NCBI GenBank assembly: GCA_949752735.1
Contig: OX457053.1
Location: forward strand, 28,870,997-28,934,996
DNA from: Lumbricus terrestris
Taxonomy: Eukaryota > Annelida > Clitellata > Crassiclitellata > Lumbricidae
Reading direction: 5' to 3'
DNA: 64,000 nucleotides
This document shows, in pieces, positions 13,922-25,336 of the stretch. Positions within the stretch are counted from its first letter, which is position 1. Each line of letters starts with the position of its first letter. The translations under genes and the position numbers were made by a program. Under the pieces are notes generated by a model. That model saw nothing but the letters and a program-made list of their open reading frames with translations. It made no database searches and was not told where the DNA came from.

Positions 13922-16900
13922 ATGGAGCAGAAACTGATGACCACTGATGAGTTGGTCAGCAAAGATTCTGATCCTGCAAAACTCACAAATCAAGCTGAAG
14001 ATGCTCAGATGTCAGTACAGAGTAATTTCTGCAGAAAATTATTTGAGGTTTTGGAAAGCTCTGACTTGGACACAGAGTTTTCAAGACATCCACAAGTCTT
14101 AGAGCAAAATCGTCAAGATTTTCACAGAAATATGAATACAGTTGAAACGTTCATACAGGAAAGTTCTTCATCTGCCAGTGAGCCTAATCAGAACTATCTC
14201 TGTGACAGTAAAGGCATGTTTGAAAGTGTAGGGTCTGTTAGATTTGAGACAGCATTCATGCAAAACAGTCTGTCAAGACTGGCCTGTGAAGACGATGATT
14301 TCAGAATAGATTTGCATCCATCACGTAGCAGTCAGAGTCGCTTTAGGTATTCAGCTGGTGCAAATGTTTCTCAGACTATGACTGCTACGAACCGAGTGAC
14401 TACTATCGTGCCGGTCAAGGATGAAGGATGCATTGATGGTGTTTCAAATGAAGACTCAAGTTCAGATGGAGTTATTTCTAAAACCAAAAGAAGAGAGATT
14501 AATGAAGATCCTGTGACCCATAAAGTGAATTCTGTCGTCAGTGATTCTGATCGTCAGGAAGAAAACTGGAAACGAGTGATAGGATGCATCCAGTATACAG
14601 ATGGAGAAGTTCCAAGCAATATGGAACAATGTGAAAGGCATACTGGAGCTGAACATGGATTTAAAGTATCAATGGAGGCTTATCAGCTGGAGCGTAAACT
14701 TATTGAAACTGAATGTCAAGGCCAACAACAGCTCTCCCCAGAGACTACTGACAATGCCGTTTGTGATGCAGCTATTGAAGACTGTAGATCTGTCAATCTA
14801 AACTTAGGTGAGGAGGAGAATGTTAAAGCGTTGATGGTTATTCTTGATCAGAGTTACTCGGACCCTGGTGAAATGATTCAAACTGGGTGTGAAGAAAGTA
14901 AACAGACTGAGACTTGGTGTCCACCAATGTCTATAAAAATAAAAGGAGCTGGGACACAAGCAGAATGCAAAAGTTCCACTTTAGCCATTGAACATGAGAT
15001 TGAAAATGAAAACCTAATTGCAACTGACTGTGAAATTGCAGGTAAGGGCCAAATTGCCATTGATTTTGAGAGTCCAGTTGAAAGTACTGTTTACCAGAGA
15101 ATTGTGGGTGAAAGCCCAATTGCCACTGACTGTGAAAGTGTCGTTAAAGATAACGTTTACCATGAAAATATACGTGAGAGTCTACTTGCAACTGAGTGTG
15201 AAAGTGCAGGTGAGAGCCCAATTGCCACTGACTGTGAAAGTGTAGTTGAAGGTAACGTTTACCATGAAATTATAAGCGAGAGTCTACTTGCAACTGAGTG
15301 TGAAAGTGCAGGTGAGAGCCCAATTGCCACTGACTGTGAAGGTGTAGTTGAAGGTAACATGTACCATGAAATTGTACGTGAGAGTCTACTTGCAACTGAC
15401 TGTGAAAGTGTAGTTGAAGGTAACGTTGACCATGAAATTATGCAAGAGAGTCTATTTGCAACTGAGTGTGAAAGTGCAGGTGAGAGCCCAATTGCCACTG
15501 ACTGTGAAAGTGTAGTTGAAGGTAACATGTACCATGAAATTGTACGTGAGAGTCTACTTGCCACTGACAGTGAAAGTGTAGTTGAAGGTAACGTTGACCA
15601 TGAAATTATGCAAGAGAGTCTACTTGCAACTGAGTGTGAAAGTGCAGGTGAGAGCCCAATTGCCACTGACTGTGAAGGTGTAGTTGAAGGTAACATGTAC
15701 CATGAAATTGTACGTGAGAGTCTACTTGCCACTGACAGTGAAAGTGGAATTGGACATGAAATTGTAGGTGAGAGCCTAATTGCCAGTGTGGTTCAATGTA
15801 AAAGTGCACTCGAGAGGAACAGTTTCACTGTGAATGAAAGGTTTTGTGAAAGCGAAAGTGAAGCTTTAGATAATCTTGACCTTAGCCAGAGGCATAGATG
15901 TGACACCAAAGTTATCAGCAACACTTACAGTGATATGATTGGGCACCAAAATGTACGCAAAAACGAGATTACGGTTGAGTTCTGTTATCAGACTGAAGAA
16001 AATTTGAAGAACACAGAGAAAGATGAAACAAAAATTGACAGCAATTGTGATACAGACAATGATTTTCAGATTAAATCAAAAGCCGAAAATATGGCTGAAG
16101 ACATAGATGAAATTTCGGATGAAATCAGTGGAGACTTTGAGATTAATTTAAATGCCCAAACAGAAAATGCATTTAAAGATGCTATGAATGGGAACAATAG
16201 CACTGAAGTTGATTGCAAGGTTAAGCCCAACTTTGAAGCTGAACGAATAAATTATATCCAGGATAATTGGAGAGCTGGAATTTTTGCCATTCCTTTTCCT
16301 GTTCTTGGAGAAAGTGATGAAGTAGCAAGGTACCAAATTGAGCAAGATATTGATTTAAAAATTGAGGATGAAGCTATGTGTGGTAGTACTGATGAAAAAA
16401 CTGGAGAAGAGAAAGAAAAGACCGTTATGGATGATATAGTTACACATGAGGATCAGAGTGTGATTAGATTTGAACAGCATCATCAAGGTGAATTGGATGA
16501 TCGATTTGATGAAGAAGTAGCAGAAGAAAATGGAGAGAAATTAGAAGAAAATGGAGAGAAATTTGATATTCCTGATGCAAGCGGAATTGAGAGTTACTCT
16601 AGTGAGTATATTTGTATGAACAAGATAATGGTAAATGATATGAATGAGCATGGAAGTAAAACGGAAACTGAAATTGATTGCTCCAATCACAATGAAAACT
16701 CAATTAAGGAAGAATTGTCCGAGCAAATGAAGACCGAACACGAATCTCATATGAAAACTGAATCATACAAGGAACTTGAACTTGAAATGTGTAGCAAAAT
16801 TGTGATTCTAGTCCGAGATGAGGTTGAAGATAAGTTGGAAATTGCACAACTGCCTGTTAATGGCCAACTGGCAGGAACTGACCAAATTCAACTTCGGCAT

Positions 16901-25100: not shown

Positions 25101-25336
25101 GATCTTTTCGGTGTTCAGAATCTATAGCAATCGAATTGGATCTGTGAGCTTTTCTAATAACATCTAACATCTGGTTTCAATCTATATAAAGCGCGTATTA
25201 TCCTGTATATTACTGCTGTTAGGCTACTGTAGACATGTTTGTTTTAATGTGATGAAATTCTGCTTTGTATTTTTAAGGGCCTGGGAAGACGGAAGGAGTT
25301 CCACCGACACCTGGACCACCTGGACCACCTGACAGA
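13922..25336 (+). CDS. acidic-repeat / ubiquitin-like / TIR fusion protein (six exons, 3' end open)
   Basis: Proposed exons: 13922-19136, 19721-19986, 21078-21189, 22535-22648, 23966-24145, 25278-25336. Every join has GT..AG borders and matching phase (1, 0, 1, 1, 1), giving about 1982 residues ending in phase 0, so more 3' exons are expected. Domain order: acidic Ser/Glu-rich region with tandem repeats (1-1738), ubiquitin-like domain (about 1741-1816), TIR domain (about 1828-1962), Gly/Pro-rich stretch (1963-1982). The ATG at 13922 is the first in a frame open from 13901; an upstream non-coding exon is possible because TTAATAG precedes it. No signal peptide or membrane segment was seen. I do not know a protein of this architecture. 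The joining is inference. Ubiquitin and TIR recognition are strong; the acidic part is unrecognised. Confidence 0.7.
15100..15790 (+). repeat. coding tandem array of ~28-34-residue [10 protein letters not shown] / [10 protein letters not shown] units
   Basis: Alternating half-units in the protein: [20 protein letters not shown] and [13 protein letters not shown]. The DNA is nearly identical between units, for example GAGAGCCCAATTGCCACTGA and GAGAGTCTACTTGCAACTGA, so the array is recent or homogenised. Variants are single substitutions (Y to D in VYHE/VDHE; C to S in TDCES/TDSES). The minus-strand frame 15259-15732 is open only because of this repeat. Confidence 0.92.
18701..19005 (+). repeat. 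153-bp coding tandem duplication (51 residues x2)
   Basis: Both units begin [12 protein letters not shown] and contain [14 protein letters not shown] and AEEIS in the same places. Copies start at 18701 and 18854. The first half is almost identical and the second half more diverged. Confidence 0.9.
19557..19695. repeat. (TGTA)n microsatellite in intron 1
   Basis: About 135 bp of ATGTATGT units, ending 25 bp before the ubiquitin exon acceptor. The Tyr-Val-Cys-Met frames here are artefacts. Confidence 0.95.
19721..19986 (+). CDS. exon 2: ubiquitin-like domain with altered C-terminus
   Basis: Acceptor TATGTGACAG at 19720, donor AAG|GTAGGC at 19986. The frame reads [20 protein letters not shown] and continues through [20 protein letters not shown] to LVLSLQGG. 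Compared with canonical ubiquitin, 69 of 76 positions match: M1I, L15I, E24D, I36L, P38S, R72S and R74Q differ. All seven lysines and the Leu8-Ile44-Val70 patch are kept. GG is followed directly by [11 protein letters not shown], so there is no free C-terminus. Arg72 is needed for activation by the ubiquitin E1, so conjugation is unlikely. The exon is more GC-rich than its neighbours, like a polyubiquitin gene copy. An isolated pseudogene fragment is the alternative, but the in-phase splice sites on both sides argue against it. Confidence 0.9.
20039..20407. mobile_element. hAT-like MITE, CATGGGCG termini, in intron 2
   Basis: Starts CATGGGCGTAGAC and ends AAACTCCGCCCATG. CTCGAC occurs at both flanks as a probable partial target duplication. 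A further CCGCCCATG end at about 20468 suggests two overlapping insertions. Same terminal motif as 7338-7497. Confidence 0.65.
21078..24145 (+). CDS. exons 3-5: complete TIR domain
   Basis: Exons 21078-21189, 22535-22648 and 23966-24145. Exon 3 gives the first strand and helix, [20 protein letters not shown], then YWFDIEQI. Exon 4 gives [17 protein letters not shown]. Exon 5 gives [14 protein letters not shown], then [20 protein letters not shown]. This is the TIR order of strands A-D. The motif S-x-W-x-x-x-E, whose Glu is catalytic in NAD-cleaving TIRs such as SARM1 and plant/bacterial TIRs, is present, and its Glu codon is formed across the exon 4/5 junction (G|AA). TIR domains act as adaptors or NAD hydrolases in innate immunity and cell death; which applies here is unknown. 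Exon 4's donor GTTCGT is weak, the least certain splice site. Confidence 0.8.
21280..21593. mobile_element. hAT-like MITE (CAAGGGCGGATACAG family), copy 2, in intron 3
   Basis: Same termini as 7608-7959 (CAAGGGCGGATACAG, CTGGATCCGCCCTT). Flanks GAGGAGTC (21272-21279) and AAGGAGTC (21594-21601) differ by one base, consistent with an ageing 8-bp duplication. Confidence 0.85.
21770..22080 (+). pseudogene. CR1-like LINE reverse transcriptase 3' remnant
   Basis: In broken frames the plus strand reads like the C-terminal end of the RT at 29628-30233 (minus): DLI.AYK, FEL, a FFS-type SHRLM segment and a final W-N-type motif. There are multiple stops. Confidence 0.5.
22890..22990. repeat. (TGTGTATA)n microsatellite
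   Basis: Alternating GTGTGTGT and TATATATG in intron 4. 22990-23960 has no exon I can support. Confidence 0.9.
24200..24960. repeat. intron-5 repeat block with internal direct duplication
   Basis: A block beginning GTCAAGTCAAGTCAAGTTTA resembles the 3' end of a LINE-type element. Within it TGCAACAACCAATCAACTTA ... ACCATGTGGC occurs twice (about 24476-24575 and 24630-24720). Confidence 0.55.
25278..25336 (+). CDS. exon 6: short Gly/Pro-rich exon following the TIR
   Basis: Acceptor TTTTTAAG at 25277; donor GACAGA|GTAAGA at 25336. With the leftover G of exon 5 it encodes [20 protein letters not shown]. It leaves phase 0, but the next recognised exon (39212) needs one leftover base, so either a missing exon lies between or the gene ends differently. 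The length is too short to identify by itself; support comes from phase and good splice sites. Confidence 0.6.

Follow-up and report, generated by a model that had tools for sequence, protein, structure and literature searches.

A candidate chimeric gene joining an acidic exon, an internal ubiquitin and a TIR domain in the earthworm Lumbricus terrestris

Introduction

A 64,000-nucleotide stretch of the Lumbricus terrestris genome (OX457053.1, forward strand, 28,870,997-28,934,996; the window hereafter) carries on its plus strand a giant exon for an acidic protein region, an exon for ubiquitin, three exons that together encode a TIR domain, and an exon rich in Gly and Pro. The question raised by this locus is whether these exons form one gene, or whether they are neighbouring genes and gene fragments that stand in a row by accident. 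A first-pass annotation, made from the letters of the window, had proposed a fusion on the grounds of splice phase. The reading favoured here from the sequence is that of one chimeric gene joining the acidic region, ubiquitin, TIR and a Gly/Pro tail in about 1995 amino acids, and its chances of being right are put at about even. The fused protein as an expressed product stands at similarly balanced chances and is likelier than any single rival.

Relatives of the pieces were sought in the 1.056-Gb assembly (331 contigs), in which the window's sequence, of 36 Mb, is called C19. The chromosome number is probably 19: of the lower-numbered sequences, ten have lengths of 40-99 Mb, and 16 taken from C20 onward all fall below 100 kb. 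In the genome-wide ubiquitin and TIR searches only the best candidates were scored.

Exon structure and reading frame

The six exons have the GT..AG borders and matching phases that had been described, and they join to one frame through the acidic region, ubiquitin, TIR and the Gly/Pro tail that is stop-free over 1982 codons. Exon 1 (13922..19136; 1738 codons and one base) encodes the acidic, disordered-type region and leaves in phase 1 at the donor GTAAGA. Exon 2, the ubiquitin domain, occupies 19721..19986 (phase 1 in, 0 out). The TIR domain is divided among exon 3 (21078..21189, KICCFLSYR...WFDIEQI; phase 0 in, 1 out), exon 4 (22535..22648; phase 1 in, 1 out; donor GTTCGT) and exon 5 (23966..24145; phase 1 in, 1 out). 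Exon 6 (25278..25378, phase 1 in) encodes the Gly/Pro tail and is either spliced at 25336 or terminal. Reading past its GTAAGA leads to a TGA at 25376-25378 and a product of 1995 amino acids; with this stop and an AATAAA at 25520..25525, a possible poly(A) signal, exon 6 may be the last exon.

Splice sites were ranked with generic weights over 708 GTs and 834 AGs. The donors of exons 1 to 6 lie, in order, at the 98.6th, 99th, 95th, 65th, 81st and 92nd percentiles, and the acceptors of exons 2 to 6 at the 97th, 80th, 98th, 89th and 98th. We infer that the six exons are spliced and that one transcript would join the acidic, ubiquitin and TIR exons.

The TIR domain and its relatives

The TIR domain is complete, as had been stated, provided that exon 4 is included. 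The joined exons score 40.5-46.0 bits on TIR_2 (PF13676; cut-off 28) and cover profile positions 2-109 of 122, and omission of exon 4 lowers the score to 16.4 bits, under the cut-off. As a control, 22 open and phase-compatible exons of 60-220 bp were considered for the middle position and ten of them were scored; the unscored 12 include two shortened forms of 22535-22648. The two scored exons ending at 22648 gave 46.0 bits (start 22535) and 38.4 bits (start 22520), and the other eight stayed at 14.6-19.9, below the cut-off.

The codon formed across the junction of exons 4 and 5 (G|AA) places a Glu four residues after a Trp (W+4, in WTQLE), the C-helix position at which TIR domains of the enzyme type (SARM1, plant and bacterial NADase TIRs) have their catalytic Glu. 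In alignments to PDB structures this Glu falls on the Glu of Cat1 (expectation value, E, 0.0014) and on that of 7uxr_A, a TIR domain protein matched at chance level (E 0.96). In SARM1 the residues W71 and E75 bind ligand, as stated in the portion of the source consulted (PMC7075850). Because of the Glu at W+4, the NADase module that had been proposed is a plausible prediction; the proposal as a whole, of a tethered TIR signalling or NADase module, finds support only in part.

Beyond the exons of the window itself, a genome search with the joined protein gave one match among the candidates scored, a TIR paralogue at C19:25.79 Mb. Its three exons (C19:25786249-25786361, C19:25787779-25787883 and C19:25788767-25788946, the counterparts of exons 3, 4 and 5) have the same internal phases as the window TIR. 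GTTCGT follows the second of them just as in the window; three other in-phase GTs there give an equal alignment score. The joined paralogue scores 31.7 bits on TIR_2 (residues 5-78 matched) and shares 32% identity with the TIR of the window. It begins with an ATG in AACATGG, a likely start Met, where the window has ATT (Ile), and it would have GCA where the window encodes the Glu, and so lack that residue. The 136 TIR codons of the window are open, with no Met before the middle exon. In 30 kb around the paralogue, a partly masked stretch of which 16 kb lies upstream, no match to the ubiquitin exon was better than E 1.8.

A cluster of TIR_2 exons (DDEEEPAQPPPVFLSYQW...) also stands at C18:23.80-23.86 Mb. 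Of the 20 loci L050-L069, compared on both strands, none comes nearer to the window TIR than L064 and L069 of this cluster, at 31-33% identity. Protein databases were queried with, among others, the TIR lacking exon 4 and joined to the tail, and the TIR with the end of ubiquitin. With the TIR part scored, no homologous protein scored among 42, 423 and 511 candidates from a database that may hold few animals.

The ubiquitin exon

Exon 2 had been called ubiquitin-like, and it belongs to the ubiquitin fold family with 105.6-107.9 bits on PF00240 (cut-off 25.4). It is identical to the polyubiquitin of C19 at 70 of 75 residues (Q2-G76) and carries the changes M1I, L15I, I36L, P38S, R72S and R74Q. 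L8, I44, H68 and V70 are retained, which leaves the Ile44 patch intact, as are all seven lysines, and the terminal GG is kept and followed by APTK. A conjugatable ubiquitin or its precursor begins at M1 and ends in R72-L73-R74-G75-G76; here M1I, R72S and R74Q have removed both features. Ubiquitin needs M1 for its start, and R72 and R74 for activation and processing. The loss of start, activation and processing residues alongside a kept recognition surface is the pattern one would predict for a domain locked into a longer polypeptide, a fit that was noticed afterwards. All 88 codons of the exon are open and none of them is Met, the window having ATA where polyubiquitin has ATG.

A (TATG)n repeat and the intron end precede the exon at 19555..19720. 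The last 40 intron bases are identical at 37 positions to those 5' of a ubiquitin exon at C19:29.61 Mb, and the acceptor is therefore not a chance AG. The genome gave at least 52 ubiquitin matches, the window's own included. The nearest unit by coding DNA lies on C8 (89.8% identity), rather than at C19:29.61 Mb (84.9%); hence either locus is at most a candidate source of the ubiquitin piece.

Several other ubiquitin loci were observed. The locus at C19:29.61 Mb consists of a two-unit ubiquitin exon with the window-type intron end and a fragment that hits a stop, set between two unrelated long open reading frames (ORFs). At C19:4.28 Mb two copies of ubiquitin are followed in line by a diverged second ubiquitin-like domain that ends in GGG. 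At C14:2388078-2388311 (L026) an open frame of 411 amino acids contains a ubiquitin-like domain that has Ile in place of M1, a further candidate for an internal ubiquitin fusion. Polyubiquitin arrays of at least 16 and at least 17 units stand at C19:4.23 Mb and C11:32.42 Mb, and the C11 units examined have a synonymous divergence (dS) above 1 against the window copy.

The acidic exon and its copy

Exon 1 had been described as a giant acidic repeat exon. It is giant, open and acidic (isoelectric point 4.4, 20% Asp plus Glu), with repeats confined mainly to a tandem array at 15014..15746, built of 34- and 56-amino-acid type units, and to 18699-18993. Its ORF of 1780 stop-free codons has a chance probability of about 2e-57 at its own base composition. 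A Pfam scan of the 1738-residue region returned 0 families, and short motif matches in it were judged to be chance.

A paralogue of this exon, 89% identical, lies at C19:30894941-30900512. The homology spans 12487-19484 of the window, with an insert of about 2.5 kb in the copy after 19425, and its end at 19484 is 237 bp 5' of the ubiquitin exon, a likely join of the chimera. Telomere-like ACCCTAACC repeats at 12370-12487 end just 5' of the other limit of the duplication.

Insertions and deletions (indels) between the two copies show where the frame has been kept. Within the exon, 10 of 10 have lengths divisible by three; of 21 in the 5' flank 3 do, and of the 4 lying from the donor to 19425 none does, only one of these four sitting in the would-be read-through tail 19137-19240. 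The frame constraint thus stops between 18898 and 19181, around the donor at 19136. On the 3' side of the acidic copy no ubiquitin or TIR exon was found as far as 30906000, and the genome-wide searches placed none there. A possible second exon of the paralogue, C19:30903564-30903659 (phase 1, GTAAGA), was considered as proof of donor use and dropped, because comparable open segments occur at 0.3-0.7 per kb in other DNA used as a control.

One gene or several

Since the ubiquitin and TIR blocks both lack a start Met, they depend on coding sequence 5' of them. On that side the closest long coding exon is the acidic one, whose strong donor (98.6th percentile) has the right phase, and the donor phase of the ubiquitin exon in turn matches exon 3. 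The fusion is therefore better grounded than by phase alone, through the frame constraint that ends at the donor, the recurring ubiquitin acceptor, the phases of the TIR paralogue and the missing Mets. The order of the pieces looks like a rearrangement chimera, because their relatives sit apart on C19 and homology to the acidic copy gives out beside a microsatellite, 237 bp short of the ubiquitin exon; alternatively, the acidic copy may have lost its 3' part. The chimeric gene, if read in this way, is probably intact.

Several observations weigh on the other side. Both joins rest on phase agreement, each of which has a chance of 1 in 3, and the donor GTTCGT after 22648 is weak (65th percentile of 708 GTs). 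Recurrence of the order acidic-ubiquitin-TIR, which the first-pass annotation had named as a check, was not found elsewhere in this genome, in own-genome searches of best candidates and reads around the paralogues; there is hence no sign that the fusion is under selection. The acidic ORF may just end at TAA 19240, where its unspliced frame leads, with an ATTAAA at 19390. Amino-acid constraint on the acidic exon is mild, since nonsynonymous divergence (dN) from the copy is 0.050 against a dS of 0.084 (1695 aligned codons) and, of six blocks measuring 300 codons or less, one has dN equal to dS. At C19:29.61 Mb a ubiquitin fragment running into a stop adjoins similar repeats. The main reason for doubt is that the ubiquitin changes on the window branch look near-neutral: besides M1I, 5 nonsynonymous and 2 synonymous codon changes occur in the window copy only, in a comparison with 20 of 22 other units (those of L025 and L026 dropped) that underestimates synonymous changes. 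Against all 22 units, dS is at least 0.39 (undefined for one unit) and dN 0.035-0.22, and the pairwise dN/dS of about 0.06-0.11 with the nearer units looks constrained. Purifying selection on the window exon was considered on these values and is not claimed, because the constraint can sit mostly on the polyubiquitin side and because of the ratio of the unique codons.

The strongest rival, though an improbable one, is that two neighbouring genes are present, in which case the acidic gene would end alone, at 19240 or through unseen 3' exons of its own, and the TIR gene, which might or might not include the ubiquitin exon, would start from an unrecognised first exon. The available stop and ATTAAA suit this explanation, as does the fact that the acidic and TIR paralogues stand apart from each other. 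However, the first indel past the donor, one of 7 bp at 19181, throws the read-through tail out of frame, whereas all ten indels of the exon keep the frame, though this is a single case; and a separate downstream gene would find no Met in the ubiquitin exon and none in the TIR before its middle exon. An in-frame ATG within (TATG)n just 5' of the ubiquitin exon would allow an unspliced start, but in that reading all three differences from C19:29.61 Mb alter the residue, as expected of an intron end.

Less probable again is that the ubiquitin exon, and perhaps the whole 3' block, is debris, namely a stray ubiquitin fragment beside a TIR gene that has lost its start, with phases that agree by chance. 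Both phases would so agree once in nine cases, and the near-neutral ubiquitin changes, the stop-bearing ubiquitin fragment at C19:29.61 Mb and the weak donor after 22648 all point the same way. Against decay stand 88 ubiquitin-exon and 136 TIR codons that are all open, and a TIR that keeps its profile score and its Glu despite divergence to 32% identity from its paralogue. The presence of M1, R72 and R74 among the six ubiquitin changes also fits a domain embedded in a protein more readily than it fits random decay, an argument made post hoc. Alternative splicing, in which some transcripts would carry the acidic exon by itself and others splice it to the ubiquitin-TIR exons, with the fusion as the minor isoform, would fit the open read-through to 19240 beside a strong donor at 19137 and is considered very unlikely.

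Proposed origin and function

If the single chimeric gene is accepted, its history and action may be outlined as follows. A duplicate of the acidic-protein gene, comprising the start codon, the giant exon and part of the DNA before them, would have come to sit 5' of a ubiquitin exon and of a TIR gene in three exons; the phase-1 donor of the acidic exon would splice into the ubiquitin and TIR exons. Ubiquitin could then be a built-in and poorly cleavable moiety, R72S and R74Q blocking its activation and hindering deubiquitinases, while the intact Ile44 patch and the seven lysines would let ubiquitin readers bind it or extend chains from it. In the ubiquitin-fusion degradation (UFD) pathway an in-line ubiquitin marks a fusion protein for turnover. 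The TIR protein may likewise be kept bound or short-lived, and its enzyme-type TIR, with the Glu at W+4, would work once brought together. Infection or stress that disturbs ubiquitin handling might allow the TIR to accumulate and cluster; cleavage of NAD+ would otherwise be restrained by the built-in ubiquitin as seen by readers or ligases. The acidic region may serve as a flexible anchor, and the function proposed at first, a tether to ubiquitin-binding partners with the acidic array as a scaffold, is a guess.

A more specific version makes the internal ubiquitin a tripwire whose altered tail resists host deubiquitinases, so that a microbial deubiquitinase or protease cutting after ubiquitin would free the TIR from its 195-kDa acidic anchor; this is regarded as a long shot. 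It is just as speculative that the TIR would thereby sense an attack on the host ubiquitin system and answer by NAD+ cleavage, as an animal ubiquitin-decoy TIR receptor.

Should the transcript exist, it would specify a TIR protein with ubiquitin built into its chain, and whether a fixed ubiquitin holds a TIR enzyme in check would, if the reading is true, become testable. The locus would also be a traceable gene birth, as each of the three pieces still has recognisable relatives on one chromosome and the losses of the start codons and of the ubiquitin tail can be read.

Other features of the window

Over 45123-52657 long plus-strand ORFs follow one another in shifting frames, and six of them that were scanned gave no Pfam match; the series would be a many-exon or frame-broken gene for a disordered protein. 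On the minus strand, 60856-61134 holds an enoyl-CoA hydratase/isomerase exon (46.4 bits on ECH_1).

Comparison with known systems

SARM1, the ARM-SAM-TIR NAD+ hydrolase of animals, shares with the window TIR a Trp and a Glu four residues apart, which in SARM1 are ligand-binding according to the portion consulted of PMC7075850, a paper whose main text lacks the word 'ubiquitin'. The window protein is no SARM1 orthologue, however, as ARM and SAM are absent from it (0 Pfam families in the 1738-residue region), its TIR is of the TIR_2 type, and SARM1 is not named among the five PDB matches at E 10 or below. It likewise differs from Toll/TLR and MyD88, since no leucine-rich repeat or death domain was reported in the scanned parts and the joined TIR matches TIR_2, PF01582 not being reported up to E 1. 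Bacterial TIR effectors provide the best PDB match, Cat1 (E 0.0014), and a weak TIR-SAVED match (E 0.0019), but these matches are distant and the window gene is eukaryotic and contains introns.

Polyubiquitin and the ubiquitin-ribosomal proteins are ubiquitin fusion precursors, and in the window too ubiquitin is in line with another protein. Unlike theirs, it is internal rather than N-terminal and has lost M1, R72 and R74, so normal processing of it is unlikely. UFD substrates carry an uncleavable ubiquitin at the N terminus; by analogy the in-line ubiquitin of the window, with an altered tail and seven lysines kept, may resemble theirs, except that it is internal.

Among the matches listed in literature word searches, no ubiquitin-TIR fusion is named in titles or abstract openings, and names of the ubiquitin-TIR kind themselves returned 0 papers. 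In Aplysia, ARM-TIR, EGF-TIR and IG-TIR proteins are described (PMC9334734), and 'ubiquitin', which occurs 22 times there, refers in the visible passages to ligases and related factors only. In amphioxus and sea anemones, lineage-specific new TIR/TIR_2 combinations are attributed to domain shuffling (PMC2575513, PMC5094078, in the parts consulted). The main text of those two papers has 0 occurrences of 'ubiquitin', in which the window gene differs from the combinations they describe, but like these products of invertebrate TIR/TIR_2 shuffling it would be a new domain combination around TIR_2.

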